Positions 11,255 to 23,930 of a stretch of DNA of 42,964 nt are shown here, piece by piece; the first letter of the stretch is position 1, and each line of letters starts with the position of its first letter. Both the position numbers and the translations under genes were made by a program. Source of the DNA: a virus. The stretch is from positions 1 to 42,964 of the IMG/VR virus record IMGVR_UViG_3300030687_000033; one strand, written 5' to 3'. Below the pieces are notes generated by a model, which saw nothing but the letters and a program-made list of their open reading frames with translations, did no database searches and was not told the origin of the DNA.

Positions 11255-11271
11255 CTAGTTGCAGATAGTTG

Positions 11272-11300: not shown

Positions 11301-11365
11301 ATCTACATGCGACGGGATAATGTACCTCGCAAACGGTAGATGGTCCGATACCATCATTCTCTAAA

Positions 11366-11374
11366 TAGAGGCTC
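11366..11374 (+). promoter_or_regulatory. Start-associated motif TAGAGGCTC
   Basis: TAGAGGCTC three bases before the ATG at 11378. GAGG can serve as ribosome site, but the following CTC is conserved among several early genes and is not part of the usual Shine-Dalgarno sequence. Confidence 0.6.
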
Positions 11375-11377
11375 GCA

Positions 11378-12046
11378 ATGTCTAACGTAATCCGCACCAG
11401 CAAAAAATCCACGATCATGGCTGACGTGTTCCTGCCGAAGATGACACTCACTCTCACCTTCATCAACGGGAAGGAGATTGTCATCGATGCGAACACGTTG
11501 TCGGAGGAAATCCGCAATCAGGCCCTCCTTCACGGGCTGAAGCAGAAACTCGTTGACGCGGCTGCAATCTCGCGCAACCTCGACACGGGCGCATCGGCAA
11601 GCGTGGATGACAAATACAATGCCGTTCGCAAAATTGCCGATCGGTTGACCGCCGATGGGGCGAAGTGGAACGAGGGCCGTGCGGCAGGTAGCGAGCCGTC
11701 ACCTACCGCAGGTGTCAATAACATCCTGCTCCGTGCTCTCATGAAAATGACCGGACGTGATATGGAGTACGTCAAAGCCTACCTGGGGAACAAAACAAAA
11801 GAGCAACGTGCCGCGCTCCGCAAGAACCCGCGCGTGGTGCAAATTATGGCTGAGTTGTCGGCTGCTACGGTCGTGAATGGGGTCAACACGGATGAGCTGT
11901 TGAGTGAATTGGGAATGGACCTGCCTGCCACTACCGACGCGGGGGACGGTTCGGGAATTGAGGCTGACCTGCCGTTGCCCCCCGTTGCCATGAAAATCCC
12001 CAATACCCGCACCAGCAAGAAGCGCCTCGTCACGTCCGGCGAGTAA
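11378..12046 (+). CDS. Early protein, 222 aa, paralog of the 13848 product
   Basis: No known domain recognised. It is homologous to the 201-residue protein at 13848-14453: both have an N-terminal TLTFINGKE/ITLDFVNGE strand pair, a HGLKQKLVD/HGMLQKLGDE helix, a central ALMKMTGRDMEYVKAYLGNKT-like segment, an ALRKNP/ALRDNP block and then NGVNTDELLSELG. This copy has a further 43-residue tail ending in basic residues. It is driven by its own promoter and start-associated motif. The conserved acidic-hydrophobic segment VNTDELLSELG recurs at the end of a third protein (19816-20049), which suggests a shared docking tail. Confidence 0.7.
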   Translation: MSNVIRTSKKSTIMADVFLPKMTLTLTFINGKEIVIDANTLSEEIRNQALLHGLKQKLVDAAAISRNLDTGASASVDDKYNAVRKIADRLTADGAKWNEGRAAGSEPSPTAGVNNILLRALMKMTGRDMEYVKAYLGNKTKEQRAALRKNPRVVQIMAELSAATVVNGVNTDELLSELGMDLPATTDAGDGSGIEADLPLPPVAMKIPNTRTSKKRLVTSGE

Positions 12047-12054
12047 AGAACTAG

Positions 12055-12097
12055 TGGATTGCGGCAACCTCTGACTATTCGAGCCGTCCGCAATCCA
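12055..12097 (+). terminator. Long-stem hairpin, possible terminator or processing site
   Basis: TGGATTGCGG (12055-12064) pairs perfectly with CCGCAATCCA (12088-12097), loop of 23 nt. It is followed by TTAAAATAAA, not a clean T-run, so intrinsic termination is uncertain. It directly follows the 222-residue gene. Confidence 0.4.
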
Positions 12098-12133
12098 TTA
12101 AAATAAACCTGCCGTACCGGGAGGGCCAACCCC

Positions 12134-12265
12134 GTGAACCATACAACCGAAATATTCCTCCTCTACATGACCTACAAACGGCATTGTGGAGTTGAGGCTA
12201 CCTATCCCGTCAGCTACAGCACTTGGTTATGGTTGCGTGGGATATCCGATGAACGTCCGTGGTAG
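12134..12265 (+). CDS. Hypothetical mini-protein, 43 aa
   Basis: GTG start with GGAGGG about nine bases upstream; begins MNHTTEIFLLYMTYKRHCG. Aromatic-rich (four Trp), soluble. It is followed after nine bases by the next small gene with its own ribosome site overlapping this stop. Support is moderate: spacing and codon continuity only. Confidence 0.4.
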   Translation: MNHTTEIFLLYMTYKRHCGVEATYPVSYSTWLWLRGISDERPW

Positions 12266-12274
12266 GAGAGAGCT

Positions 12275-12421
12275 ATGTACCCGTATGAAAGGGGATATGC
12301 CGCGAGGGAGTGTGGGGAAACCTTAAGAGCCAACCCCTACCCCGTCGGAAGTAACGATTACATAGAATGGCTCGATGGTTACATAGACGCCAGTAATAAC
12401 ATAGCCTATGGCGAGGGCTAG
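12275..12421 (+). CDS. RMF-like small protein, 48 aa
   Basis: The pattern is YERGYAAREC at the start, then ANPYPVG, then YIEWLDGYIDA near the C-terminus. This layout (GY.A...G...NPYP....WLDGY..A) resembles the ribosome modulation factor/CrpP-type family, whose host member RMF binds the 30S platform and promotes ribosome hibernation. If real, it could act on host translation. The similarity is by short motif only. TAGGAGAGAG provides a strong ribosome site. Confidence 0.5.
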   Translation: MYPYERGYAARECGETLRANPYPVGSNDYIEWLDGYIDASNNIAYGEG

Positions 12422-12502
12422 ATGTTCCTAATTCGATTCATAGTAGCTCTAACAATGTTTTTCTCTGGCCTTTTGTGGATGCTGCGGCATGGCTATTTCT
12501 AA
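12422..12502 (+). CDS. Membrane mini-protein, 26 aa
   Basis: ATG directly follows the stop of the RMF-like gene (TAGATG). It begins MFLIRFIVALTMFFSGLLW, a single membrane helix, and ends MLRHGYF. Too short to assign, but it fits the run of tiny membrane proteins in this early cluster. Confidence 0.4.
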   Translation: MFLIRFIVALTMFFSGLLWMLRHGYF

Positions 12503-12619
12503 CAACTCACTACCCTCACCACTAACTAAATAGCAGCACGGATGTCGTGGTACTCGCCTATCACACTATCCAGGCCCGAACAATACGAGACTTTGCACTT
12601 CCCGTAGTTCTAACCTTCA

Positions 12620-12628
12620 TAGAGGCTC
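12620..12628 (+). promoter_or_regulatory. Start-associated motif TAGAGGCTC
   Basis: TAGAGGCTC five bases before the ATG at 12634; it decides that start over an in-frame codon at 12547. Confidence 0.6.
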
Positions 12629-12633
12629 ATATC

Positions 12634-12846
12634 ATGCATCAATATCAAGTGACTGTAGAAACGAAAGACAAGCGACTCTTCGCTACCGAATGGGTAACCG
12701 GGCATGATAGTGCTGTGGCTCTGGTTCTCCTAATAGCATCTAGGTTTGAGGAGCCGACTTACCGAATCGGGGTTTCTCATAGGGTGCTCGATATCACTGC
12801 CGAGGAATGGGGTGATTTCGTGGTGAGCGGATCCAGCGGGAATTGA
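12634..12846 (+). CDS. Early hypothetical protein, 70 aa
   Basis: Starts MHQYQVTVETKDKRLFATE; soluble, mixed alpha/beta. The start is set by the TAGAGGCTC motif. It resembles the 64-residue first early protein in its opening strand pattern and LFAT motif, which hints at an old duplication. Palindrome E4 begins immediately after its stop. Function unknown. Confidence 0.65.
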   Translation: MHQYQVTVETKDKRLFATEWVTGHDSAVALVLLIASRFEEPTYRIGVSHRVLDITAEEWGDFVVSGSSGN

Positions 12847-12848
12847 TG

Positions 12849-12891
12849 GTTTTCAACCGGGATTAACATTTAGTAATCCCGGTCATTTACT
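12849..12891. repeat. 43-bp palindromic element E4
   Basis: Left arm gttttcaaccgggatta, centre acatttag, right arm taatcccggtcatttact. It lies between the stop of the 70-residue gene and the start-associated motif of the next gene, 12 bp before its ATG. Confidence 0.9.
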
Positions 12892-12899
12892 AGAGGCTC
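12891..12899 (+). promoter_or_regulatory. Start-associated motif TAGAGGCTC
   Basis: TAGAGGCTC, then AGC and the ATG at 12903. It abuts palindrome E4 (one base shared), giving the palindrome + motif + start layout in its most compact form. Confidence 0.65.
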
Positions 12900-12902
12900 A
12901 GC

Positions 12903-13169
12903 ATGCCACGTGAAATCTCTGCCGTTACCGAAACCCTCGCTGCTATGTGCGCGAGCCATAACTCAAAACACGCCTCCCTGCGAGAACTAGCGCAAACCGC
13001 TATTGACTGCCCTGGGAAATACCTGCCCAGCTACTTGCATCCAGCCGAGCTACGCACCTCTAGAGAGGCGTGGTACACAGGGTTTGTTGAGGCAATGACC
13101 CTTGTGCTCAAACATATCGATTCGGCCTCGCCCCCGCCCCGCCACGGTACGCAAAGTAAGCGCTGGTAG
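12903..13169 (+). CDS. Early hypothetical protein, 88 aa
   Basis: Starts MPREISAVTETLAAMCASH; a helical soluble protein with a Pro-rich, basic C-terminal tail (PPPRHGTQSKRW). Its start is set by palindrome E4 and the TAGAGGCTC motif. No family recognised. Confidence 0.65.
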   Translation: MPREISAVTETLAAMCASHNSKHASLRELAQTAIDCPGKYLPSYLHPAELRTSREAWYTGFVEAMTLVLKHIDSASPPPRHGTQSKRW

Positions 13170-13193
13170 TCTACGGCGTGCGATGGAAACCCA

Positions 13194-13218
13194 CCCGCCA
13201 TAGAGCGGGATTTCCTTT
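13194..13218 (+). terminator. Possible intrinsic terminator
   Basis: CCCGC-catagA-GCGGG hairpin followed by ATTTCCTTTAT, 25 bases after the 88-residue gene. The stem is short and the T-run interrupted. Confidence 0.4.
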
Positions 13219-13320
13219 ATGGTTTAATGAAGTGGCGGTAGTCTGGGGATTGTCCGGGGAAAATGGCAGACAAATCCAGACTAACCATTCATGCAGCACT
13301 ACTTCAACAGGTAATCAGCC

Positions 13321-13749
13321 ATGCCAAAAGGTAAAGAGTTATCCGATTTCGGTCCTGAGTTCCAGCAAATGCTCCTGCGAGTTGACAAGGCTTTCCTAGC
13401 GGGAGCCGACGAATTCCCAATCGATTTCGCCACGCACAAGCTAGCCCACGCGCTGCGCTTCCGTATCTATAGCTATTTCAATGCCCTACGGGTCTGCGGT
13501 GACCGACCGGACCTAACCGCGATGTGCACTAACTTGTCTATGCGCATCGCCGGGACCGCGCTGGTTTTCTACCGGAAGGGGGAAGATAAGGAGTCGGAAG
13601 CTCTTCGTAATGCCTTGGGATTAGAAAAGGGATTCGCAGATGGACCGACCACACATGGGGTTGCCGCTCCGAGCACGGCACTATCGGGCTATTTAGAGCA
13701 ATTGGCCCAACTACGAGCCAATCCGTTATTCAAAAAGAACGAAAAATAG
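13321..13749 (+). CDS. Early hypothetical protein, 142 aa
   Basis: Starts MPKGKELSDFGPEFQQMLL. Mostly helical, with a central LAHALRFRIYSYFNALR segment and a basic C-terminus. It has no signal or membrane segment and no recognised domain. It is the last gene before the strong promoter at 13754. Confidence 0.65.
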   Translation: MPKGKELSDFGPEFQQMLLRVDKAFLAGADEFPIDFATHKLAHALRFRIYSYFNALRVCGDRPDLTAMCTNLSMRIAGTALVFYRKGEDKESEALRNALGLEKGFADGPTTHGVAAPSTALSGYLEQLAQLRANPLFKKNEK

Positions 13750-13753
13750 CCGG

Positions 13754-13782
13754 TTGACACTCGCCCCGCGCTGCTCTATAGT
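13754..13782 (+). promoter_or_regulatory. Strong sigma70 promoter
   Basis: TTGACA at 13754-13759, 17-bp spacer, TATAGT at 13777-13782. It starts five bases after the stop of the 142-residue gene and drives the 201-residue protein gene and probably the structured RNA that follows it. Confidence 0.82.
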
Positions 13783-13847
13783 CTCTCTAACGACTCGCCA
13801 ACTACCGAGTCGCCTACTGAACACCAACCAAACTGGAGTAACAAGAG

Positions 13848-14453
13848 ATGACGGAACATGTAGAAGTGGGCACGGCGGCAAAAGTCAAGACAGTGCGGGA
13901 AGTAAAGACTGTTGTGATGTCGGATGGTCGTGAAGTGGAGTTTGCTGGCAAGCGCCGGTTGCTGAAAACGGCAGCTATCTCGGAAGACAACTTCGACGTG
14001 ACCATCACCTTGGATTTCGTTAATGGTGAAACGCGTCAGTTGTCCCTCGCAGCCAACAAGCCCCTCTTCGCGAAGTTCGCTGCCCACGGCATGCTGCAGA
14101 AACTCGGTGATGAAGTCGCCGGTCTGGATGATGTGGAAGACATGGTGATCGCAGAGGAAGAGCTGATCGCCCGTCTGGAAGGTGGTGAATGGGGTGCTGA
14201 GCGTGCACGCGGGGAAAGCAATGCGATGGCAGGGCTGTCGGTCCTCGCGAAGGCCCTGGTGCAGGTCTCCGGCAAGACCGCTGAAGCTGTCAAGAGCTTC
14301 CTGAAGAGCAAAACCAACACGGAAAAGCTCGCGCTGCGTGACAATCCGACGTTGAAGCCGGTGATTGCTGAGCTGGAAAGCAAGAAGAAGCAAAAGCCGA
14401 AGGACAACGGTGTGAATACGGAAGATCTGCTGTCGGAACTGGGCGCGGAGTAA
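13848..14453 (+). CDS. Early protein, 201 aa, paralog of the 11378 product
   Basis: Shares an architecture with the 222-residue protein (see 11378): the ITLDFVNGETRQL strand region (about residues 51-63), HGMLQKLGDE, a charged middle, an AEAVKSFLKSKTNTEKLALR segment, then basic KKKQKPKDNG and a terminal VNTEDLLSELGAE. The conserved end is acidic-hydrophobic after a basic stretch, like a flexible docking tail. A dedicated near-consensus promoter suggests high early expression. Function not known; the paralog pair and shared tail make a nucleoprotein or regulator role possible but unproven. Confidence 0.72.
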   Translation: MTEHVEVGTAAKVKTVREVKTVVMSDGREVEFAGKRRLLKTAAISEDNFDVTITLDFVNGETRQLSLAANKPLFAKFAAHGMLQKLGDEVAGLDDVEDMVIAEEELIARLEGGEWGAERARGESNAMAGLSVLAKALVQVSGKTAEAVKSFLKSKTNTEKLALRDNPTLKPVIAELESKKKQKPKDNGVNTEDLLSELGAE

Positions 14454-14813
14454 TCGACAACCACGCTTGGGAGCCTTTGAAAGGGGGCACCTGTTGTATA
14501 GCGCACCAGGGTTGAGCAAGGCGAGAAGCAAATAGCGGCCCCTAGCTATTCAAAAGGAGGGGAGACTGGGGCAGGGGGCAACACCCTGCGGGATGCAAAA
14601 TGCTTCCTGCTCCACCTAAGTACCCTTATCAGGGGTGACCACAGCGTCTAGTCCACGCCTCAGCTTAGTTCAGGAGTGACTACCTGAATGAAACTGTTAA
14701 TGAGTCCCCCGCGATAAGGGTATTTGGAGATTAAAGTTAGCTGATACGGCCAACAGTCCCTCGAAGTAAACTGGGATCAGCGGACCACCTTTCCAAGTAT
14801 CCGTCTCAACATG

Positions 14814-14857
14814 CCGTAATAGACACAGAACTGAGCCTCCTGTGTTGTGCCTTACGG
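14814..14857 (+). ncRNA. Hairpin presenting the complement of the start-associated motif
   Basis: Outer stem 14814-14819/14852-14857, inner stem 14823-14828/14840-14845, loop 14829-14839. The loop bases CTGAGCCTC could pair over nine bases with GAGGCTCAG at 12893-12901 and over seven to nine bases with other copies of the motif. Whether it is expressed or pairs is unknown. Confidence 0.45.
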
Positions 14858-14860
14858 TTC

Positions 14861-14900
14861 AAGGGACCTCCAGTTAAGGCTGTCGAGGTCCCTTTTCTCT
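14861..14900 (+). terminator. Intrinsic terminator
   Basis: AAGGGACCTC (14861-14870) pairs perfectly with GAGGTCCCTT (14885-14894), loop 14 nt, followed by TTCTCTTG. It closes the structured region. Confidence 0.75.
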
Positions 14901-14910
14901 TGTAGAATTC

Positions 14911-14953
14911 ATTTCCCACCGCGATTACTAAATAGTAATCCCCGTCGAAAACT
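14911..14953. repeat. 43-bp palindromic element E5
   Basis: Left arm atttcccaccgcgatta, centre ctaaatag, right arm taatccccgtcgaaaact. It lies between the terminator at 14861-14900 and the promoter at 14970-14997, so it is 16 bp upstream of a -35 box. Confidence 0.9.
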
Positions 14954-14969
14954 CTTTTTGATAACTGAG

Positions 14970-14997
14970 TTGCGTTTTCCGCGTGAATAACTATAAT
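14970..14997 (+). promoter_or_regulatory. Sigma70-type promoter
   Basis: TTGCGT at 14970-14975, 16-bp spacer, TATAAT at 14992-14997. It drives the regulator/replication block beginning at 15093. Palindrome E5 sits directly upstream, where an activator or repressor would bind. Confidence 0.65.
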
Positions 14998-15082
14998 TAG
15001 AGTTATGGAGTCGGGGCTAGCACTAGAGAAGGATGCGGGGATACAGACCCGAGCTAGCTAGATTCCCCCTTATTCTCCATTG

Positions 15083-15090
15083 TGAGGCTC
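15083..15090 (+). promoter_or_regulatory. Start-associated motif TGAGGCTC
   Basis: TGAGGCTC two bases before the GTG at 15093; it decides that start. Confidence 0.55.
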
Positions 15091-15092
15091 AC

Positions 15093-15560
15093 GTGACAAT
15101 AGATATTGATGTAGGACTAGACCTCGACTCTCTCCTCGAAGAGTCCGTCGACATCCAGAAGGCCCGCAGAGAGCAAAAATCTGCCAAAAAGGCTTCCAAC
15201 AAGGGTGCAGTCCTCCCCAAAACAGCTGCATGGATGACCGGGCCGGAAGTAGCCGAGCATTACAAGGACGTAGCCAAGATAAAGCAGACCGCTGAAGGCT
15301 GGAAGCCTCTCGCAGCTATCCTCCTGATCCACGCCCAGGTCTGCACTACCTGCCATACAGAACACCAGCGAGTCGAGGGCACCTTCATCAAGAAGGAAAA
15401 CCTCCGGCTACGTGCTATCTCCTATCTCCAGCCCAAGGACGCTTTCGACCTGAAAGACCTTCCAAGGGAAATTGAAATCCGCCCTCTCTACACTCCGATC
15501 TGCCCGAATTGCTATTTAACCCAGGGCTGGTCGGATGCCCCTATTACTTTGAAGGAGTAG
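15093..15560 (+). CDS. Putative zinc-ribbon protein, 155 aa
   Basis: GTG start set by the motif TGAGGCTC; an ATG at 15033 lacks a ribosome site. A charged N-terminal part with a basic stretch (KARREQKSAKKASNK) is followed by two Cys pairs, CTTCH near residue 100 and CPNC near residue 143, spaced like a zinc-binding site. It could bind nucleic acid or a protein partner. First gene of the block driven by the promoter at 14970. Confidence 0.6.
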   Translation: MTIDIDVGLDLDSLLEESVDIQKARREQKSAKKASNKGAVLPKTAAWMTGPEVAEHYKDVAKIKQTAEGWKPLAAILLIHAQVCTTCHTEHQRVEGTFIKKENLRLRAISYLQPKDAFDLKDLPREIEIRPLYTPICPNCYLTQGWSDAPITLKE

Positions 15561-15565
15561 CTGAG

Positions 15566-16033
15566 ATGAAATCTCCCACCCCCTCACCGATCTCTCAAGC
15601 GGCAGGCGAGCGCGATCCAGGCGCGTATGACATCCGGAGCACGCTCGAAACGATCACGCTGCTATGCGAAGAGAATGGCGAACCGTGCGACGGCTTCCGA
15701 TTTCGGGAGTTGATATTGAAGGCACGCACATTCCTCTCCACCGCTCCGACCACTGGAAGCGAGCCGGTAGCGTTCTACGATCCGAATGACGGCCGCCGTC
15801 AAGAGTCGTTCGTCTGGGCATCTGATTACCCTAACGGTGCTGGATCTTCAAATGTTCCGCTCTACGCCACCCCTGCCAGCCCCGTAGCGAGCGTGCTGAC
15901 GGATGGGCAGATTAAAGAACATTTTGACTCTCACGCCCGATATGCGCTTGAAGGTAGCAAACTGTATTGGGATGACGCATTAGCATTTGCTCGCGCCCTC
16001 CTTGCGGCGTCTATGGGCGGAGATAAGCCATGA
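15566..16033 (+). CDS. Hypothetical phage protein with SEPVAFY/PLYATP motif, 155 aa
   Basis: Start chosen at ATG 15566, with GAAGGAG upstream that also lies at the end of the previous gene. The central segment EPVAFYDPN...NVPLYATP is a pattern seen in many short phage proteins of enteric and related phages whose function is unknown. The C-terminal half has a HFDSHARYALEGSKLYWDDA helix region. It overlaps the next HTH gene by four bases (ATGA). Confidence 0.65.
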   Translation: MKSPTPSPISQAAGERDPGAYDIRSTLETITLLCEENGEPCDGFRFRELILKARTFLSTAPTTGSEPVAFYDPNDGRRQESFVWASDYPNGAGSSNVPLYATPASPVASVLTDGQIKEHFDSHARYALEGSKLYWDDALAFARALLAASMGGDKP

Positions 16034-16254
16034 GGCTCGGTGAATTGATCCGTACGCGCCGTGAAGCGCTTGGCCTGACGCTCGAAGAAACAGCCGATGC
16101 CATCGGTTGCTCGAAGTCTTATATCTGGGAAGTCGAGAACCACAAGGGCTACAAGATCAGCTTGTTACTTGCCGCGCGCTTGTCCATCGGCTTGGGCCTG
16201 CAAGTGTCAATGCTGGCTGCCTCAGCCCTAGAATCTGAAAAGGAATCGAAATGA
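16030..16254 (+). CDS. XRE-family HTH regulator, 74 aa
   Basis: A small Cro/CI-type DNA-binding protein: LIRTRREALGLTLEETADAI, then turn and recognition helix CSKSYIWEVENHKG. The domain fills almost the entire protein, leaving no dimerisation or cleavage domain, so it is more Cro-like than CI-like. Coupled by ATGA to the gene before. It may bind operators near early promoters or the dispersed palindromes; no operator can be assigned. Confidence 0.8.
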   Translation: MRLGELIRTRREALGLTLEETADAIGCSKSYIWEVENHKGYKISLLLAARLSIGLGLQVSMLAASALESEKESK

Positions 16255-16463
16255 TCTGGCCTACCAAAGTAAAAAGTGACGACGGCAAGACGTTCTATAC
16301 CGATGACGTCGCCCCCACGCAGGGCGCAGATGCGCGACCGGTGGTGATCTGCCAGATAGAACAGCACAACGGCTCATGGCTTGATGTGTCGATAGACGCC
16401 TACGAAAGCACTGAAGTGAGTCGCAGACGCATTGTTCATCTAATTGAAAAGGAGTCTTCCTAA
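16251..16463 (+). CDS. Hypothetical protein, 70 aa
   Basis: Starts MIWPTKVKSDDGKTFYTDD; soluble, likely beta-rich. It overlaps both neighbours by ATGA or single-base overlaps, so it is part of the regulator operon. No family recognised. Confidence 0.65.
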   Translation: MIWPTKVKSDDGKTFYTDDVAPTQGADARPVVICQIEQHNGSWLDVSIDAYESTEVSRRRIVHLIEKESS

Positions 16464-16699
16464 TGGGCCGTCCTCGCAAAACCACCCCACCTGTCCGCAT
16501 TGGCTTCACCCTGCCCCAGGATCTGGCCGACCGACTCGACTCCCACCTCAAGTCCGAAGTGGAAAATCGAGTCCCGCATGGTGACAAGAGCAAGTTCTTC
16601 GAAGGTCTGACACGTCAATATTTTGAAACACTTGACGGAGAGCTCACTGAAATCGAAACCTCACTGGAGAAAGAAAATGGGATGGGCCAGGAAATCTGA
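16463..16699 (+). CDS. Ribbon-helix-helix-like regulator, 78 aa
   Basis: MGRPRKTTPPVRIGFTLPQD is a basic N-terminal strand followed by DLADRLDSHL, the layout of small RHH/CopG-like DNA-binding proteins, and then helices and an acidic tail. The overlapping arrangement with two HTH genes supports a role as transcription regulator. Confidence 0.55.
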   Translation: MGRPRKTTPPVRIGFTLPQDLADRLDSHLKSEVENRVPHGDKSKFFEGLTRQYFETLDGELTEIETSLEKENGMGQEI

Positions 16700-16910
16700 C
16701 GGAACAACCCCACTGGGGGATCGTCTCAAGAAAGAGCGCAATCGCAGGGGATTTACCAATCTCAATGCCTTCGCCAAATCCGTAAACATGTCTGTTTACA
16801 GTATCACTGCTATAGAGAATCGCGGAGCAGCCCCGCACGTGCATAACCTGATCAAAATTGCTCAGGTACTTGAATGTTCAACAGACTGGCTCTTGGGCCT
16901 AGAGGAGTAG
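16677..16910 (+). CDS. XRE-family HTH regulator, 77 aa
   Basis: Start at ATG 16677 (MGWARKSDGTTPLGDRL) with GGAG upstream. HTH helices are GFTNLNAFAKSVNMSVYSI and the next helix, ending in the typical ECSTDWLLGLEE of phage Cro/C2-type regulators. It overlaps the RHH-like gene by 23 bases in another frame. With the 16030 product it makes two XRE regulators within one kilobase. Confidence 0.8.
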   Translation: MGWARKSDGTTPLGDRLKKERNRRGFTNLNAFAKSVNMSVYSITAIENRGAAPHVHNLIKIAQVLECSTDWLLGLEE

Positions 16911-16915
16911 CAAGC

Positions 16916-17389
16916 ATGATCCCAGCAGAACGACGTGATGCAGCATCAGCGTGTTGGTTGAAGCCAGCGGACTTAGGCAAGATGCCGCATGGGGGGATGA
17001 ACTACGCCCAGTGTGACTTGTGGCCGAATCTCGCCAGAAACTCCACAGAGTTCCCGCAGCCGAATACCACCTGCTACATCTCCGGCCCTGTCACCGGTAT
17101 CGAGGAATTCAACCGGCCCTCGTTCCTCCTCGCGCAACGGATGCTGCTCTCAGCCGGTTGCTCTGTGTTCAATCCAATCCACATTGATTGGCCGATTGAT
17201 CCGCTAGAGGGGGAAGCTCTCTGGCAGTACATGATGCATTACTGTGTAGCTGCTATCCCCCTCTGTGACAGCTTGCTGATGCTCCCCGATTGGCAGAATA
17301 GCAAGGGCGCTAAGGAAGAACACCGTATCGCCAAGATGTTAGGACTGATCATCTACTACTCCCCCGTACTCGATAAAGAGAACAAGTAA
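16916..17389 (+). CDS. DUF4406 (nucleoside deoxyribosyltransferase-like) protein, 157 aa
   Basis: After about 50 less conserved residues it has CYISGPVTGIEEFNRPSF, then CSVFNPIHIDWP, a central YCVAAIPLCDSLLMLPDW and SKGAKEEHRIAKMLGLIIYY. This is the DUF4406 pattern, a Rossmann-like fold related to nucleoside 2-deoxyribosyltransferases that cleave N-glycosidic bonds. Substrate unknown; nucleotide or NAD-related chemistry is possible. ATG 16916 has GAGGAG upstream. Confidence 0.7.
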   Translation: MIPAERRDAASACWLKPADLGKMPHGGMNYAQCDLWPNLARNSTEFPQPNTTCYISGPVTGIEEFNRPSFLLAQRMLLSAGCSVFNPIHIDWPIDPLEGEALWQYMMHYCVAAIPLCDSLLMLPDWQNSKGAKEEHRIAKMLGLIIYYSPVLDKENK

Positions 17390-17424
17390 CTCACCCCCAC
17401 CACCAGGGCAAGCCCTGACAGCTA

Positions 17425-17432
17425 AAAGGCTC
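17425..17432 (+). promoter_or_regulatory. Start-associated motif AAAGGCTC
   Basis: AAAGGCTC then AATT and the GTG start of the helicase gene. A variant of GAGGCTC with A for G at the first position. Confidence 0.5.
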
Positions 17433-17436
17433 AATT

Positions 17437-18753
17437 GTGAATCATGAAGAACTATCAGCATCCCAAGCGGACGCGACGCTCTACCAAGCTGAAGCCCCAT
17501 TCGAGTTCACCTCGGACCAGCTCGAAGCGATCCAAGAACTCCTCAACTACATCTCCAGCCCCTATCTCACCGACTGGTACTTCTGCTTCCGTGGCTATGC
17601 TGGCACCGGCAAAACATCTTGCATGCGGGAGGTCGCCAGACGAGTTGGGTCGTCGAATGCTAGATTTGCTTACACTGCTCCAACAAACAAGGCAGCAAAA
17701 GTCCTGCGGGAGATCGTGGGCAGTGCCTCAACCATCTATTCCTTGCTGGGCCTCCGAGTTGACAAGAACGGAGAAACTAAGCAAATCGCACACGGTAAGC
17801 CTGTTGACCTGTCAGACCTGGATGTTATTGTTGTAGACGAAGCCTCGATGGTGAATGCGCACCTCTTCGACCTGCTCTCCGACATCGCGGACAAATTCAA
17901 CCTCAAAGTGGTTTTCATGGGGGACCCTGCGCAGCTACCTCCTGTGAAAGAATCAGAGAGCCTTGCCCTGCAGGGTGAAACGGGCATTCAACTCACTAAG
18001 GTGATGCGCCATGACAACCAGATTCTCTCGCTCGTCTCTTCGATTCGAGAAGTTATATTCTCTCCGGCACCTTCAATTAATATCAAATCTGACAACCGAA
18101 ACGGAGAGGGTGTCTGGAAGCTCAGCAAGCCAGACTTCAAAAAAGAAATCTATGCAGCAGCCTCCCGAGGTGAATTCGCTGATGGCCGAACAACTAAGGT
18201 CATCTCCTGGCGAAATGTCAAGGTTGACGAGTACAACCAAATCGCCAGAGCCGCTATCTTTGGAGCAGAAGCGCAGCCAGGATTTTTTCTTGTGGGAGAC
18301 CGAGTTGTGGCAGCTGGCCCTTGTGAGCGGAATGACGACCTGCTCCTCCACACCGACGACGAGGCTATTGTTGAAGGAGTGATTGAGTGCAAGCATCCGC
18401 TGGAGCCGAAGTATCACGCGCTGGAGTTGAAATGCCGAAGGGAGGATAACCAGATTATTCGCCTCTTAGTCATTCATCCAGCTAGTCAACAACAACACGA
18501 CAATGATTGTGAACTGTTGGCCCATGAAGCCAGGGGGAATCCAAAACTCTGGCGACGTTTTTGGGACCTTAAGGACTTGTTCCATCAGATTAAATTTGCC
18601 TATGCAATCACTGCGCATAGATCGCAGGGGTCTACGTATACCAATGTATTCGTAGATTTCCAGGATACTCTTTACAACAGGAACCGTAGAGAGGCTTTTC
18701 AGTGTTTATATGTAGCGTGCTCTCGTGCTAGTAAAAGACTTTACCTTGCCTAA
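17437..18753 (+). CDS. Dda/RecD-like SF1 DNA helicase, 438 aa
   Basis: A 5'-3' SF1B-type helicase: Q-like FTSDQLEAIQEL (24-35), Walker A GYAGTGKT (53-60), motif Ia TAPTNKAAKVL, Walker B VIVVDEASM (130-138), motif III GDPAQLPPV, and near the C-terminus AITAHRSQGSTY (motif V/VI region) with CLYVACSRASKRLY. Length matches T4 Dda (439). It would unwind DNA in phage replication or recombination. GTG start set by the AAAGGCTC motif. The reading frame is intact despite the homing-endonuclease-like gene just downstream. Confidence 0.9.
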   Translation: MNHEELSASQADATLYQAEAPFEFTSDQLEAIQELLNYISSPYLTDWYFCFRGYAGTGKTSCMREVARRVGSSNARFAYTAPTNKAAKVLREIVGSASTIYSLLGLRVDKNGETKQIAHGKPVDLSDLDVIVVDEASMVNAHLFDLLSDIADKFNLKVVFMGDPAQLPPVKESESLALQGETGIQLTKVMRHDNQILSLVSSIREVIFSPAPSINIKSDNRNGEGVWKLSKPDFKKEIYAAASRGEFADGRTTKVISWRNVKVDEYNQIARAAIFGAEAQPGFFLVGDRVVAAGPCERNDDLLLHTDDEAIVEGVIECKHPLEPKYHALELKCRREDNQIIRLLVIHPASQQQHDNDCELLAHEARGNPKLWRRFWDLKDLFHQIKFAYAITAHRSQGSTYTNVFVDFQDTLYNRNRREAFQCLYVACSRASKRLYLA

Positions 18754-18808
18754 ACTAGTTTGCATATGATGTTTGTGCGTACTCATGGGGAGTGCAAGGA
18801 GAATCTAA

Positions 18809-19390
18809 ATGGAAGCGGTTGATATTGTTGGGGAAAAGTTCGGGAACTGGGAAGTTGTGGAAAGAGCCCCCAATAGACAGACAAGAGCGGTATGGGTTTG
18901 TCGGTGTGTTTGCGGAACACTTGCAGAAGTTTATGGGGGAAATCTTCGCAGGGGCCTTTCGAAAGGATGCGGCTGCAATTGGGCCGAAGTTCACCCTGAA
19001 AAATTTAAGCACGGAAGAACTGAAACTAAGGAATGGTTGGCCTGGAGAAACTTAAAAGACAGGTGTAACAACCCTAATGTTCGGAATTACGATCAGTACG
19101 GAGGTCGGGGGATTACTTATGCCCCGGAATGGGAAGAGTTTTCCGCCTTTTTCCGGGATATGGGAGGAGCTCCCTCGAAACAGCATTCGATAGATCGCAT
19201 TGATAATGATGGCAATTACTGTAAAAGTAATTGTAAATGGTCCACCTCTTCAGAACAGGCCCTCAATCGTAGAGTTTGTTTAAAAACAGGGGGAAAAAAT
19301 TTATACGAGCTTGCAGCTGAATATGGCATTACAGTAAAAGCGTATAAGTTTAAACGAGATCACGGGTTGTTACCCGTTAAATCTGACTAG
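18809..19390 (+). CDS. Putative EDxHD/Vsr-like homing endonuclease, 193 aa
   Basis: The N-terminal part carries VCRCVCGTL and KGCGC Cys pairs (zinc-like). The central region has WRNLKDRCNNP, then YDQYGGRGITY, W.EF..F..DMG, SIDRIDNDGNY and CKWSTSSEQ.NRR, the pattern of free-standing phage nucleases related to I-Bth0305I and Vsr. A C-terminal EYGITVKAYKFKRDHG could be a DNA-binding helix pair. It lies 56 bases after the helicase gene, in an A/T-richer local composition, typical of a mobile insertion. Cleavage activity is not shown. Confidence 0.6.
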   Translation: MEAVDIVGEKFGNWEVVERAPNRQTRAVWVCRCVCGTLAEVYGGNLRRGLSKGCGCNWAEVHPEKFKHGRTETKEWLAWRNLKDRCNNPNVRNYDQYGGRGITYAPEWEEFSAFFRDMGGAPSKQHSIDRIDNDGNYCKSNCKWSTSSEQALNRRVCLKTGGKNLYELAAEYGITVKAYKFKRDHGLLPVKSD

Positions 19391-19395
19391 CATCT

Positions 19396-19438
19396 ATTAT
19401 TTACCGGGATTACTATTGATTAATCGCGGTGAGAAACT
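19396..19438. repeat. 43-bp palindromic element E6
   Basis: Left arm attatttaccgggatta, centre ctattgat, right arm taatcgcggtgagaaact. It lies 16 bp before the ATG at 19454, followed by the GGAGGCTGAA ribosome site. Confidence 0.9.
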
Positions 19439-19453
19439 AAATCGGAGGCTGAA

Positions 19454-19645
19454 ATGGGAAAAGTTAAATTGAATGTGCCCGACCCCTTAGACTTCTGCCC
19501 GGCTTGCCATAAAAAGACCCAGCAGGAATGCTCTCACGTGAACTGTGGCCGTCGTAAGAGAGTTACTGTGGCAGTCCCGGATGATGCATCCTGTCGCGGT
19601 ATGCAGTCTGGCGGGTATTACCGAAAAACTTACCAGGACAAATAA
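19454..19645 (+). CDS. Small Cys-rich protein, 63 aa
   Basis: Starts MGKVKLNVPDPLDFCPACHK, with CPAC at 15-18 and C....NC near 26-31, forming a plausible zinc site, then a basic RRKRV stretch. It follows palindrome E6 and a GGAGGCTGA ribosome site. Likely a small zinc-binding adaptor or nucleic-acid binder; no family recognised. Confidence 0.6.
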   Translation: MGKVKLNVPDPLDFCPACHKKTQQECSHVNCGRRKRVTVAVPDDASCRGMQSGGYYRKTYQDK

Positions 19646-19646
19646 C

Positions 19647-19826
19647 ATGCATCATCTTAAAGAAACCACCATCGACGGGGTGAAGTTCGTGCTGATCCCT
19701 GAAGAGTTGCATGACAAGCTTGTTCGTATTTGTCACCCTTGCTATTCTCCCGGTGAATTCGATTGGGCAATGGTTTGTGATGACTGGGAAGCCTACGACC
19801 CGGAGATTTTCAGCGATGGCAAGTGA
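19647..19826 (+). CDS. Hypothetical acidic protein, 59 aa
   Basis: Starts MHHLKETTIDGVKFVLIPEE; acidic, with CHPC in the middle and an acidic Trp-containing end (DDWEAYDPEIFSDGK). It overlaps the following gene by 11 bases. Function unknown. Confidence 0.55.
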   Translation: MHHLKETTIDGVKFVLIPEELHDKLVRICHPCYSPGEFDWAMVCDDWEAYDPEIFSDGK

Positions 19827-20049
19827 ATTGATTAACGAACAGGTTCAAGATTGGCGCAACCGAGCAGCATTAGGTCAATTGTCGATTGATGAAATGAAAA
19901 TCGCTATCGAGGCAATCCGCAAGGAGCGCGCCAATCTCGAAGCTCCCAAGCCGAAGAAGCGTGCCGCAGCGGGCACAGCAGCAAAGCCGAAGAAGCTCAA
20001 ACCGGAGGATGTAAACTCCGACGATCTGCTGAAAGAACTAGGCATCTAA
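19816..20049 (+). CDS. Basic protein with VNSDDLLKELGI tail, 77 aa
   Basis: An N-terminal helical part (EQVQDWRNRAALGQLSIDEM) and an Ala/Lys/Pro-rich basic linker (PKPKKRAAAGTAAKPKKLK) lead to the C-terminal EDVNSDDLLKELGI. The same basic-linker plus VN[TS]-[DE]-[DE]-LL-x-ELG end occurs in the two paralogous proteins at 11378 and 13848, though the N-terminal domains differ. The linker looks DNA-binding and the end looks like a protein-docking peptide. ATG 19816 has CGGAG about ten bases upstream; a longer in-frame start at 19711 would overlap the previous gene almost completely. Confidence 0.62.
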   Translation: MASELINEQVQDWRNRAALGQLSIDEMKIAIEAIRKERANLEAPKPKKRAAAGTAAKPKKLKPEDVNSDDLLKELGI

Positions 20050-20063
20050 CCGTAGTACAACTA

Positions 20064-20072
20064 CAGAGGCTC
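20064..20072 (+). promoter_or_regulatory. Start-associated motif CAGAGGCTC
   Basis: CAGAGGCTC three bases before the ATG at 20076. Confidence 0.6.
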
Positions 20073-20075
20073 GAA

Positions 20076-20411
20076 ATGCAAGTAACACAAATGGTTTATC
20101 TGATAGCAGGACCAAGCCAGAACTACAATCAGGAGACTTACGAATACGAAGATTGTGTCTCTTTCACAGTATGGCCCTACGACAAATACGGAGATTCCGA
20201 CCCTGCTGTCGCCTCTCAGGAAGTTACTTTTGAAGTCCCTGATGGATTGAATGCGAAAGATCTGAAATTGCAGGCACTTGAAGCGGAGCGGGTTAGGCTC
20301 ATGGCCGACTTCAACCACCGCATCACCCAAATCCAGGCCGAAATCAACCAGCTGACCGCGATCGAGTTTCAGGTAGCTCCACAGGGAGATGATCTTGACA
20401 TCCCCTTTTAA
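20076..20411 (+). CDS. Hypothetical protein, 111 aa
   Basis: Starts MQVTQMVYLIAGPSQNYNQE; an N-terminal beta-rich half and a C-terminal helical half (EAERVRLMADFNHRITQIQAE) that may be a coiled coil. It overlaps the nuclease gene by about 20 bases. Start set by the CAGAGGCTC motif. Function unknown. Confidence 0.65.
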   Translation: MQVTQMVYLIAGPSQNYNQETYEYEDCVSFTVWPYDKYGDSDPAVASQEVTFEVPDGLNAKDLKLQALEAERVRLMADFNHRITQIQAEINQLTAIEFQVAPQGDDLDIPF

Positions 20412-21438
20412 ATTCCGCCCAATGTTCCCCAATGCAGTCGACTCCACGTTGATCGCCGCGTTCCGGGCATGCCCCCAAAAGTTTTTCCTGAGCTACGTAG
20501 AGCATTGGAAAAGCACCACCAAGAGCGTCCATCTCGTCGCCGGAGGCGCATTCGCCTCAGCAATCGAAGCCGCTCGGGAAGCCTTCTACGTCGAAGGAAA
20601 GTCCAACAGCGATTCAGAAGCAATCGGAATGACTGCTCTTATCAAGGGGTACGGGGATTTCGAGTGTACTCCAGAGAGTGCCAAGTCACTGGAACGCATG
20701 CTCGGGGCTTTCGAATTCTATCTTTTCAACTACCCATTAGGGGGTGATGGTGCCGAACCGATTACGCTGCCTGGGGGTCGAAAGGGCATTGAGTTCTCTT
20801 TTGCTGAGCCTCTTGCTATTAATCATCCTGTTACCGGTGTTCCTATTCTCTATACTGGGCGTAGTGATATGGTTGCCAATCGTCATGGTACAGGGATCTG
20901 GAACTACGACGAGAAAACCACCAGCTCCTTAGGGGCTACTTGGGGCCGGCAGTGGGAGATGCGCAGCCAGTTCACCGGCTACAACTGGGCTCTCCTCCAG
21001 CAAGGCATCAAACCCCAGGGCACTATCGTCCGTGGCATCTCCATCCTCAAGACCAAGTACGACACGATGGAAGTCCCGACCTATCGTAGCCCTCATGAAA
21101 TCGCCCTCTGGGAGAAGCAAACTCTCAGAGATATCAAACGAATGATAGCTTGCTGGGAAGAGGGGTACTGGGATTATGACATCGACGGGGCGTGTACGGA
21201 ATATGGTGGTTGCCAGTTTCAGCGAATCTGCAAATCCAGCAACCCCGATGAATGGCTTCCAGCACATTTCGTGCAGCGTGTGTGGGACCCATTGGAGCGT
21301 GCTGAGATTAGTGTTGCCGATTACGAGTCTAAGTGGGGCTTCGTCCGGCCAGAAGAAGCACCTCCTGCCCCAGGACTCCCTGGATTGTTGCTTGGAGACG
21401 GCCATGCGCTTGGTGAAGAATTGAAAGGACTGATGTAA
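20389..21438 (+). CDS. PD-(D/E)XK exonuclease (RecB/Cas4-like), 349 aa
   Basis: Begins SPFKFRPMFPNAVDSTLIAAFRACPQKFFLSY, the usual opening of RecB-type phage nucleases. It then has GGAFASAIEAARE, YTGRSDMVANRHG with the first catalytic acid, WNYDEKTTSS as the D/E-x-K motif, and QFTGYNWALLQQ as the following helix. Such proteins process double-stranded ends for recombination or replication. The start is uncertain: ATG 20389 has AGGGAG too close; TTG 20395 or ATG 20422 are alternatives, and the domain begins near the latter. It sits two genes before the RecA-like ATPase. Confidence 0.82.
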   Translation: MILTSPFKFRPMFPNAVDSTLIAAFRACPQKFFLSYVEHWKSTTKSVHLVAGGAFASAIEAAREAFYVEGKSNSDSEAIGMTALIKGYGDFECTPESAKSLERMLGAFEFYLFNYPLGGDGAEPITLPGGRKGIEFSFAEPLAINHPVTGVPILYTGRSDMVANRHGTGIWNYDEKTTSSLGATWGRQWEMRSQFTGYNWALLQQGIKPQGTIVRGISILKTKYDTMEVPTYRSPHEIALWEKQTLRDIKRMIACWEEGYWDYDIDGACTEYGGCQFQRICKSSNPDEWLPAHFVQRVWDPLERAEISVADYESKWGFVRPEEAPPAPGLPGLLLGDGHALGEELKGLM

Positions 21439-21440
21439 TT

Positions 21441-21533
21441 ATGACAACGTCAACAGTAGTTCTTCAGGCTTTACTTGAATTTCTCTGCGGAGCAGTAATA
21501 GGTGCCTTAGTGATGTATTTTTATCAGAAGTGA
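21441..21533 (+). CDS. Membrane mini-protein, 30 aa
   Basis: ATG two bases after the nuclease stop; begins MTTSTVVLQALLEFLCGAVI and is one membrane helix ending YQK. The stop lies one base before the ATG of the next gene. Small but tightly packed between real genes. Confidence 0.4.
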   Translation: MTTSTVVLQALLEFLCGAVIGALVMYFYQK

Positions 21534-21534
21534 C

Positions 21535-21888
21535 ATGCAATTCTTCCGCCACTTCTACATCGGAACTAACTACCTCGGCTCTTCTGAAGACCGCATCCGA
21601 TTCATTCACGGGGAAGCCCAACAGCCTGTCCCTTACGTGATGTTCTGCCCGTGCTGTGGGGAGATTTGGGCGAGGATGCCGGTGCTCAACTCAATGGCGG
21701 ATTGGCGGATCATCGGGGGGTATTGCGAGAAGCACGGGAAGTCCCGCTATGCAATCGCAGGCTCCCTGATGCTGAATTGGGAACCGGAACTCACCGCTAT
21801 CTTGCCGGATGAAGTTATCAAAAGGGAATTCGCCCTTCACTTACGACTATGGGATAAGGAAAATGACAGAAAGCTGGAAAGAGCCTGA
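21535..21888 (+). CDS. Putative zinc-binding protein, 117 aa
   Basis: Contains MFCPCCGEIWARMP near residue 36 and YCEKHGKSRY near residue 63, together a CxxC...CxxH site in a small treble-clef or ribbon arrangement. The rest is soluble and aromatic-rich. It lies between the nuclease and ATPase genes, so a replication or recombination accessory role is possible. Confidence 0.65.
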   Translation: MQFFRHFYIGTNYLGSSEDRIRFIHGEAQQPVPYVMFCPCCGEIWARMPVLNSMADWRIIGGYCEKHGKSRYAIAGSLMLNWEPELTAILPDEVIKREFALHLRLWDKENDRKLERA

Positions 21889-22111
21889 AGAGGACAACAT
21901 GTCGATAGGGGAGCTAGCCGAATACTTGCTATCCTTTCCGGCAGAGATTCAACATTTACCAGTGAAGGTCCTTTGGGAAGGGCAGATATTCCCCGTCAAC
22001 AAAGCCAGATTCGACTTCACTGATGGAAAGCGCTACTACGCTGAATCCCTGATGAAAGGGAAAGCGACATACACAGGAATTTACCTGGAACTCTACGCGG
22101 ATCACATGTAA
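21863..22111 (+). CDS. Hypothetical protein, 82 aa
   Basis: Start at ATG 21863 (MTESWKEPEEDNMSIGEL) with AAGGA upstream; it overlaps the previous gene by 26 bases. It contains SIGELAEYLLSFPAE and then alternating strands, a layout seen in small phage proteins of unknown function. The stop overlaps the ATPase start (TAATG). Confidence 0.6.
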   Translation: MTESWKEPEEDNMSIGELAEYLLSFPAEIQHLPVKVLWEGQIFPVNKARFDFTDGKRYYAESLMKGKATYTGIYLELYADHM

Positions 22112-23037
22112 TGACACTCGAACAAGGTACAGCAGTAGGAGACTCCGCTGATCTTCCAGGAATGGAACTATCGGCACTACCGGGCGTAAATTGTATGCTG
22201 ATGGGGCCATCAGGCACAGGCAAAACCCACGCCATCGGAACCATTGCCGAAGCCTACCCCGATCTGGAAGTGTTTTACCTCGGTCTGGAACCCGGGATGG
22301 AAACCCTGCTCGGCTACTACAAGAGCAAGGGGAAACCTCTACCCCCTAACCTCCATTGGCATTATCTCGAAGCAGCTAAGGCATCGTTCAAGGACATGCT
22401 GGAAGGTGCGAAGCGAGTTAACACGATGTCATTGGAAACACTGGCGAAAACAAATGATCCCAACAGATCCAAACACAATCGATTTATCAAGCTCCTCGAA
22501 GTCCTTAACGATTTCCCTGACGACAGAACAGGCAAGAAATTTGGCTGCGCTGATGAGTGGGGTCCGAACCGAATCCTTGTTATCGACGGAATGGCCGGTC
22601 TGGCTCGCATGGCAATGTCCCTCGTCGTGGGAAATAAGCCTGTCAAGAATATTAGCGACTGGGGAATAGCCCAGGATCAGATCGAGAAGGTCATCAACCT
22701 CTGGACGGACGCTTGCAAGTGCCATTTCATCCTCATTGCTCACGTCGAGCGGGAAAAGGATGAAGTTCTCGGTGGTATCAAGCTGATGGTCAGCACTCTC
22801 GGGAATAAGTTGGCCCCGAAGTTGCCAGCAATGTTTTCGGATGTGATTCTCGCTGTCCGCGAAGGTTCCAAATTCACATGGGACACAGCCAACTCACAGG
22901 CTGACGTCAAGACCCGCAACTTGGCAATTGCCGCTGGATTGCCCCCGGATTTCAAGCCGATCTTCACTTCGTGGCTGTCGCGTGGTGGGAAGTTTGTTGA
23001 GGGCGTGCGGGATGCGAATAGCCCCCCGGAGGAGTGA
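22111..23037 (+). CDS. RecA-like AAA ATPase (AAA_24/Sak4-like), 308 aa
   Basis: P-loop GPSGTGKT at 32-39, then LEVFYLGLEPGMETL, and a Walker B region ILVIDGMAGL near residue 152, followed by FILIAHVEREKDE as the sensor-like strand. This is the pattern of phage single-domain RecA-like ATPases (AAA_24 type, some called Sak4) that assist single-strand annealing with the phage SSB. The ssDNA-binding-like gene downstream and the exonuclease upstream support a recombination/replication module. Confidence 0.8.
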   Translation: MTLEQGTAVGDSADLPGMELSALPGVNCMLMGPSGTGKTHAIGTIAEAYPDLEVFYLGLEPGMETLLGYYKSKGKPLPPNLHWHYLEAAKASFKDMLEGAKRVNTMSLETLAKTNDPNRSKHNRFIKLLEVLNDFPDDRTGKKFGCADEWGPNRILVIDGMAGLARMAMSLVVGNKPVKNISDWGIAQDQIEKVINLWTDACKCHFILIAHVEREKDEVLGGIKLMVSTLGNKLAPKLPAMFSDVILAVREGSKFTWDTANSQADVKTRNLAIAAGLPPDFKPIFTSWLSRGGKFVEGVRDANSPPEE

Positions 23038-23231
23038 TGAGAATAGTAGACACAGATAACTTTGCTGGAGATTACCCGGATGAGAAATTTATTCTGGGCT
23101 GGGTGACTGAAAAACAGGGAAAAGAAATTGTGGAAGTTATTAATAGAGTCCTCAATGAGCGTGGAGAGTGCTCTAGGTATTATAAAGTAGTAGCAGATGA
23201 TTATCAGCTCCAACCGGGTTTTCAACCGTGA
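23037..23231 (+). CDS. Hypothetical protein, 64 aa
   Basis: ATG overlaps the ATPase stop (TGATG) with GGAGGAG upstream. Starts MRIVDTDNFAGDYPDEKF, then EVINRVLNERGE helix. Its last codons (GFQP, then TGA) lie inside palindrome E7, so the element was incorporated as the gene end. Related in style to phage proteins that bind small ligands, but not recognised. Confidence 0.65.
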   Translation: MRIVDTDNFAGDYPDEKFILGWVTEKQGKEIVEVINRVLNERGECSRYYKVVADDYQLQPGFQP

Positions 23232-23260
23232 TTAACAAATAGTAATCGCGGGTAATAACT
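23218..23260. repeat. 43-bp palindromic element E7
   Basis: Left arm gttttcaaccgtgatta, centre acaaatag, right arm taatcgcgggtaataact. It supplies the final residues and stop codon of the 64-residue gene. About 130 bp follow before the SSB-like gene. Confidence 0.9.
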
Positions 23261-23393
23261 ACCCTAACCCTGACAGGAGGTGCGTAAATACTAGCAAAAC
23301 TGGCTATTAACTAGCCCCAATCGGTAATATAGTTTCTCTACGGTGCGAGCACCGGCAAATGTTACAAACTCTCTTAATCTCCGAGGTCATTCC

Positions 23394-23849
23394 ATGTTTG
23401 ACGCAGATAGCTTTTTGAATTCCGCAGTAACCGGCTCCAACTCCACCAAAGTCGTTCCGTGCCCCATGGGGGAATTCCCTGGCGTCATCGACAAGATCGC
23501 AGCACGCCAATGGCAGTCTGGCGACGGCACGAAAACTGGTGTCGCCCTCGATGTGACCTGGGCAATCGAAGATGACGAAGCCAAAGCCACAACTGGCCGT
23601 GATGTCGTCACCGCTCGCCAAGGCATCATGCTGGATCTCACCCCCGACGGTGCTATCGACATGGGGGAAGGAAAGAATGTGGCCCTCGGTCGCTTGCGTG
23701 CAGCTACCGGCCTCAACGATCCGTCAGTCGAGTTCTCGTTCAACCAGCTCCCTGGCCGCATGGCTAAGGTCAAGGTCGGTCATCGCCCGGACAAGAACGA
23801 CCCGGAGATTGTCTACGCGCAAGTTGATGCAGTAACCAGCCTGGGCTAA
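23394..23849 (+). CDS. Single-stranded DNA-binding-like protein, 151 aa
   Basis: Starts MFDADSFLNSAVTGSNSTKV, then beta-strand-rich sequence with IDKIAARQW, GVALDVTWAIED, TARQGIMLDLT and RMAKVKVGHR: an OB-fold-type pattern like DUF669/phage SSB proteins. These coat single-stranded DNA during replication. ATG at 23394 is preferred over an upstream codon at 23343. A hairpin terminator follows. The C-terminus is AQVDAVTSLG, without the classic acidic SSB tail. Confidence 0.65.
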   Translation: MFDADSFLNSAVTGSNSTKVVPCPMGEFPGVIDKIAARQWQSGDGTKTGVALDVTWAIEDDEAKATTGRDVVTARQGIMLDLTPDGAIDMGEGKNVALGRLRAATGLNDPSVEFSFNQLPGRMAKVKVGHRPDKNDPEIVYAQVDAVTSLG

Positions 23850-23882
23850 GCAACCCCCAGTAACAAAACTCGTTGCAATGGG

Positions 23883-23907
23883 CCGGCCTTCAGGGGCCGG
23901 TTCTTCC
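23883..23907 (+). terminator. Intrinsic terminator
   Basis: CCGGCC-ttcagg-GGCCGG hairpin followed by TTCTTCCT, just after the SSB-like gene. Confidence 0.6.
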
Positions 23908-23916
23908 TGAAGATCT

Positions 23917-23926
23917 ACAAAGGCTC
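23917..23926 (+). promoter_or_regulatory. Start-associated motif ACAAAGGCTC
   Basis: AAAGGCTCAG followed by AC and the ATG at 23931. The eight bases AGGCTCAG match the complement of the RNA hairpin loop at 14829-14839. Confidence 0.55.
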
Positions 23927-23930
23927 AGAC

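Follow-up and report, generated by a model that had tools for sequence, protein, structure and literature searches.

The stretch of DNA considered here is an IMG/VR phage contig (record IMGVR_UViG_3300030687_000033, positions 1 to 42,964), and its full length of 42,964 nucleotides (nt) is called the window. Its plus strand carries the early and replication genes, at about 10-28.7 kb; the remaining genes lie mostly on the minus strand. In the early region the sequence GAGGCTC, or a close variant of it, stands a few nucleotides before several start codons. This start tag, and a hairpin with a complementary loop that is encoded behind an early gene of 201 amino acids (aa), are the subject of the analysis.

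The start tag and the presumed RNA locus

The tag sites in the window are as follows.

10947-10953, plus strand: weaker tag GAGGCTG, 2 nt before ATG 10956 (50 aa); palindrome upstream
11368-11374, plus strand: tag GAGGCTC, 3 nt before ATG 11378 (222 aa)
12622-12628, plus strand: tag GAGGCTC, 5 nt before ATG 12634 (70 aa)
12893-12899, plus strand: tag GAGGCTC, 3 nt before ATG 12903 (88 aa); palindrome adjoins upstream
15084-15090, plus strand: tag GAGGCTC, 2 nt before GTG 15093 (155 aa)
17426-17432, plus strand: tag AAGGCTC, 4 nt before GTG 17437 (Dda-like helicase, 438 aa)
19445-19451, plus strand: weaker tag GAGGCTG, 2 nt before ATG 19454 (63 aa); palindrome upstream
20066-20072, plus strand: tag GAGGCTC, 3 nt before ATG 20076 (111 aa)
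23920-23926, plus strand: tag AAGGCTC, 4 nt before ATG 23931 (124 aa, lipoprotein-like)

A first-pass annotation, made from the sequence alone, had placed GAGGCTC or close variants before seven of these starts. Five carry it exactly and the other two have AAGGCTC, the close variants in question; an exact TAGAGGCTC, also proposed there, is found at starts 11378, 12634 and 12903 and not at the remaining ones. GAGGCTG does precede 10956 and 19454, with a spacer of 2 nt at both. The proposed enrichment at starts is far from chance, as 6 of the 18 plus-strand copies of AGGCTC lie at called starts against 0.27 expected (binomial P 1.7e-7), and of all 180 permutations of AGGCTC no other attains its near-start count in the window. 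GAGGCTC itself has 16 copies on both strands together, compared with 8.18 expected, a number reached by none of 100 dinucleotide shuffles. On the minus strand only 1 of 19 AGGCTC copies is at a start (P 0.19). The minus-strand late genes, which were said to be tagless, do lack exact GAGGCTC, but the gene start at 42415 has AAGGCTC with a 9-nt spacer. Genes were called by a purpose-made automatic caller that misses some short genes, for example the one at 12903, so that the start counts are lower bounds.

Non-coding DNA downstream of the 201-aa gene holds an opposite-strand copy of the tag at 14833-14839, which on the plus strand is the loop of a hairpin. The elements of this locus are listed below; UTR stands for untranslated region.

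13754-13782, plus strand: sigma-70-like promoter TTGACA-17-TATAGT, preceding the 201-aa gene, proposed only from its match to 11 of 12 consensus positions
13848-14453, plus strand: 201-aa early gene, function not assigned; its 3' UTR holds the RNA and the gene itself is tagless
14454-14905, plus strand: structured 3' UTR and presumed RNA gene, minimum free energy -164.8 kcal/mol
14532-14562, plus strand: conserved H-type pseudoknot, 97% of cells paired, 11 double-change cells versus 2.1 in shuffles
14814-14857, plus strand: anti-tag hairpin, outer stem CCGTAA/TTACGG, inner stem ACACAG/CTGTGT
14832-14839, plus strand: anti-tag loop TGAGCCTC, reverse complement of GAGGCTCA
14863-14901, plus strand: intrinsic terminator GGGACCTC..GAGGTCCC and then a T-rich tail, directly after the anti-tag hairpin

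The hairpin reads CCGTAA-TAG-ACACAG-AAC-TGAGCCTC-CTGTGT-TGTGCC-TTACGG and had escaped the first-pass annotation, which had set the CTC of the tag apart from a normal ribosome site but did not see its partner. The fold z score is -2.4 for the hairpin alone and -3.5 for hairpin plus terminator; hairpins from two relatives gave -3.1 and -3.8. The promoter ranks best in a scan of 9200-29000 that found no excess overall (15 versus 17.5 in shuffles). Shortly past the stop codon of the 201-aa gene, the pseudoknot also occurs in the related contigs L095, L013, L048, L053, L119, L120, L065, L055 and L054. The RNA is a 3' UTR wherever the flanking gene is known: in distant relatives it follows directly past the stop codon, and in nearer ones it lies behind extra structured modules, sometimes tRNAs. 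Such tRNA genes (Ile, Asn, Gly/Asp/Gln) stand between the 201-aa gene and the hairpin in L020 (138-211), L053 (4221-4295) and L065 (2244-2844). Covariance models of Rfam 15 gave no match in the window, none up to E 1 for 14440-15090, and only tRNAs in L053, L119, L065 and L020.

Tag and loop change together across contigs

Relatives were gathered by their DNA polymerase, helicase and 201-aa gene. In several of them the region 3' of the 201-aa gene, or of its homologue, has a hairpin with the loop GAGCCTC just ahead of a terminator. Their stems differ yet pair, and the loop is constant (AAGTCG/CGACTT, ACTTCG/CGAAGT, GGAAAG/CTTTCC, ATGGCTCTG/CAGAGCCAT and others). Over the 12 aligned rows 94.9% of stem cells are paired versus 71.1% in shuffles, with 31 double-change cells versus 9.2 (equalled in 0 of 500 shuffles) and a covariation score of 0.545 versus 0.119; sliding the stem partners gave at most 51.3% pairing. 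The alignment kept all rows; in L048, L120 and L055 the inner stem is shifted, and these rows count against it. Four pattern scans of IMG/VR extended the search. The first returned 15 stretches, judged by reading to be nine hairpins of this kind and six chance matches; the second returned 96, and among the 81 listed only three previously unknown ones passed the hairpin filter, all in known contigs; the third returned 20, nine of this kind (L238 was found here) and 11 by chance; the fourth returned six, three known already and three chance matches without a hairpin. A search of annotated phage records gave no match spanning most of the hairpin.

The tag recurs at early starts of relatives, for example eight times in L048, and also in L059 and L064, two contigs with helicases 58% identical. 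It is not at starts of the annotated phages MW202489, PP438425 and MF497422, and in OQ067476 it is not above chance. The association with the hairpin was examined in the 31 contigs for which the sequence 3' of the 201-aa gene is available, L054 being counted separately. The 17 contigs with loop GAGCCTC have [GA]AGGCTC at 51 of 301 called plus-strand genes, at least one tag being present in 16 of the 17, and the 14 contigs without such a loop have it at 0 of 298. Fisher tests give P 9e-17 by gene and 6e-8 by contig, both of which overstate independence.

The loop itself can also differ. The hairpin of L055 is kept but its loop is the tetraloop TCTT, and [GA]AGGCTC precedes no start. In L054 the loop is AAGCCTC; this contig and L025, from the same sample, have GAGGCTT at five starts, GAGGTTT at two more and GAGGCTC at none. 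In L238/G029 the loop is TAGCCTC, and GAGGCTA stands at nine listed starts, at 7 of 19 called genes and at 7 of the 9 starts having GAGG; GAGGCTC is at none. A tblastn search of L238 with the polymerase, helicase, Sak4, terminase, 201-aa and 222-aa proteins of the window found no match, and its replication module differs from that of the window, so that the RNA is common to unrelated backbones. In this phage (L257, G029 15000-34192) the GAGGCTA tags often come as tandem doublets with a spacing of 10-15 nt.

In a helicase tree L054, L055 and the pair L123/L124 fall inside the RNA-carrying clade (20 rows, support 100/100), with L055 beside L065 (97/94) and the fork holding L123/L124 supported at 80/88. 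Loop and tag are lost together in L055 and in L123 with L124, and changed together in L054, so these placements require a minimum of two joint losses plus a joint change.

These patterns bear on how the tag is read. One possibility is that the motif is simply the Shine-Dalgarno sequence favoured by the host, or that the host has an unusual 16S 3' end pairing with GGCTC. GAGG is indeed a Shine-Dalgarno core, correctly placed. Yet a normal 16S 3' tail cannot pair with CTC, and predicted duplexes of the tail with the seven [GA]AGGCTC sites (-3.2 to -5.8 kcal/mol, for a generic tail that is maybe not the host's) come from GAGG or AAGG alone. A search of bacterial genomes for a prophage that would point to the host gave a sole match of 24%, in Chryseobacterium. 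CTC follows GAGG at 42 of 96 called starts in the 17 loop-carrying contigs versus 0 of 75 in the 14 without the loop, and it becomes CTT or CTA in step with the phage RNA, which makes a host 16S explanation of GGCTC unnecessary; we consider it highly improbable. The earlier view, in which a ribosome site accounts for GAGG alone and CTC must be explained in some other way, is thus supported by the tie of CTC to the RNA loop.

It could also be argued that a DNA- or RNA-binding protein reads GAGGCTC in either orientation, with the hairpin as an additional binding site. GAG-G-CTC is a short inverted repeat and the phage encodes helix-turn-helix (HTH) regulators. Against this, the opposite-strand copy sits in a hairpin loop closed by a stem that covaries, the variants GAGGCTT and GAGGCTA are not inverted repeats, and both orientations change in complementary fashion, so that recognition by a protein is highly improbable. 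Action of the hairpin in cis only, on the next gene (15093), with the remaining tags incidental, is very unlikely as well. That gene is tagged in several relatives, but a terminator stands between it and the hairpin, and neither the changed tag at nine starts in L238 nor the tag at seven starts in the window would be expected.

Predicted pairing and its possible consequences

For the loop of the window, the predicted duplexes with the seven [GA]AGGCTC leaders have energies of -12.0 to -17.1 kcal/mol and those with the GAGGCTG leaders of -10.1 and -10.4 kcal/mol, compared with -1.9 to -7.7 kcal/mol for seven untagged starts. Pairing of loop and tag is strongly supported by the comparison of genomes, where the tag, the hairpin, the covariation of its stem, the joint presence and absence of RNA and tag and the joint change of loop and tag are established. 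A complementary seed exposed in a loop, coevolution of seed and target, and an intrinsic terminator are among the properties by which trans-acting antisense small RNAs (sRNAs) are recognized, and the locus has these three as judged from its sequence. We consider it likely that the start motif serves as the target of an antisense RNA encoded by the phage, which pairs over the Shine-Dalgarno sequence and thereby represses several early genes as a set.

The mechanism may be envisaged as follows. The RNA would be made and released from the 201-aa early gene, whose structured 3' UTR it is, and would end in the hairpin and then the intrinsic terminator. The 11-nt hairpin loop would present 5'-UGAGCCUC-3' and pair over 7-8 base pairs (bp) with GAGGCUC(A) at about seven early genes; its contact with GAGGCUG, at two further genes, would be weaker. 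Since the Shine-Dalgarno GAGG lies within the paired stretch, which stops 2-5 nt before the start codon, exclusion of the 30S subunit is expected. By keeping 30S subunits off, the pairing would repress the tagged genes together, rather than activate or destabilize them, and the RNA could serve as a timed switch during infection. The 201-aa gene, from which the RNA would arise, has no tag of its own.

Pairing might have a different outcome. The mRNA could be stabilized, a nuclease could be recruited, or the tagged mRNAs could act as a sponge for an RNA aimed at host mRNAs. The support for pairing carries no sign, and a contact of 7-8 bp would presumably allow several outcomes. However, since the Shine-Dalgarno core takes part in the pairing, the simplest outcome is that the ribosome site is occluded, and an effect other than repression seems unlikely, although it is a more serious option than the explanations discussed above.

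Several observations weigh against the proposed repression by an antisense RNA. The contigs behind the association tests are related, which is why their P values overstate independence. The GAGGCTG sites match the loop by six letters only, and in L025 and L054 GAGGCTG is about as frequent as GAGGCTT (four each in this count); moreover, the hairpin of L025 falls outside its contig. L136 has the loop GAGCCTC, yet its sole start of this kind is GAGGCTT, which requires a G-U wobble. L056 has no tag by the automatic count and one tag-like start by eye, and L065 has few tags.

The early region also contains a 28-bp palindrome, ACCGSGATTA-8-TAATCSCGGT, with eleven copies in the window (2677, 9355, 10904, 12856, 14918, 19403, 23225, 26653, 28782, 36617 and 37284). 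The first-pass annotation had noted palindromes ahead of 10956, 12903 and 19454, and these are real (10904-10931, 12856-12883 and 19403-19430). A further copy adjoins the RNA locus.

14918-14945, plus strand: palindrome copy past the terminator, ahead of gene 15093

The palindrome was considered as part of the motif and rejected. It lies directly ahead of only three of the nine tags and about 140 nt upstream of a fourth, and it occurs elsewhere, one copy falling within the DNA polymerase gene; it is therefore treated as a separate feature. Its half-sites vary independently, and by its sequence it looks more like an operator than a hairpin. Two small HTH regulators with repressor-like PHROG matches are encoded near each other at 16030-16254 and 16623-16910, and they are possible candidates for binding it. 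The early proteins 11378-12046, 13848-14453 and 19711-20049 share a C-terminal D(D/E)LLxELG-like stretch (DNA repeat family D3); the proteins of this group that were scanned had no Pfam or PHROG match.

Comparison with known systems

A close parallel is found in the start-associated sequences (SAS) and extended SAS (ESAS) of cluster K mycobacteriophages and cluster EF Microbacterium phages, described since 2011 without a known function, which have conserved letters beyond those pairing with 16S rRNA (PMC3203893, PMC7302621). As far as these accounts go, the function of SAS and ESAS is unexplained in print (PMC3203893, PMC7302621), and in four of the cluster K phages one SAS copy has the opposite orientation (PMC3203893). 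Like these elements as described, the tag is a short conserved sequence located where the ribosome site lies in many non-structural genes, some copies being preceded by an inverted repeat. The sequences themselves are different (GGGATAGGAGCCC and GGGAAAGGACCCC), the phages are unrelated, and the passages on SAS and ESAS mention no RNA partner (PMC3203893, PMC7302621). Measured against the definition of the cluster K SAS, GAGGCTC is not the 13-bp GGGATAGGAGCCC with at most two deviations. It does lie a few nucleotides from non-structural starts in one orientation, the opposite copy being the RNA loop, and an inverted repeat is directly upstream of three of nine sites, compared with about half for SAS.

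For the unexplained SAS of cluster K mycobacteriophages the present system points to a way of testing, and the check made here was mixed. In phage Anaya the opposite-orientation copy falls within a non-coding gap, where it makes up a hairpin loop. A hairpin loop of this anti-SAS type is found in Anaya, Angelica, Enkosi and Efra2 and partially in Hammy; among the nine cluster K phages examined it was not found in Marshawn, Unicorn, TribleTrouble and Pixie. AnnaSerena has no such loop on the coding strand. The generalization to cluster K is suggestive in four of nine phages, partial in a fifth and failed in the other four; we do not claim it, and it belongs with the objections listed above. The loop CCTCCTATCCCC, nearly complementary to the SAS, occurs in four cluster K mycobacteriophages (L083 29873, L086 1153, L088 738 and L090 777), and the annotation of Angelica places a gene over its hairpin site.

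Among bacterial sRNAs, those with C-rich anti-Shine-Dalgarno loops pair with the Shine-Dalgarno sequences of several mRNAs. In contrast to their targets, the tag has letters past the Shine-Dalgarno core that are present only with the RNA and coevolve with it. In the c4 antisense RNA of phages P1 and P7, loops complementary to the ribosome binding site block translation of ant (PMC12197685). The present RNA would likewise be phage-encoded, with a loop complementary to a ribosome binding site; c4 as described there has a single target, the antirepressor mRNA ant, whereas here one loop fits some seven to nine starts, each with a dedicated tag. In phage T4, RegA and RegB shut off many early phage mRNAs at their initiation regions, RegB by cutting GGAG (PMC3014915); according to that account these are proteins, unlike the present RNA. 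The literature searched described neither a phage RNA with dedicated tags before many starts nor a phage riboregulon of this type.

If the proposed role is correct, a single antisense RNA controls seven to nine early phage genes, and the tag/anti-tag pair could be used as a tunable control part. A broader and more tentative idea, which we would at present rather doubt than assert, is that of a mobile two-part translation code. Each phage would encode a single anti-tag RNA and have the corresponding tag before many of its starts, and unrelated backbones would share the RNA and differ at position 7 (C, T or A), which would give each private control of its early genes. A system of this kind may also underlie the SAS of actinobacteriophages. 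The tag described here differs from the start-associated sequences as presented in the accounts cited above in having a coevolving phage RNA as its partner.

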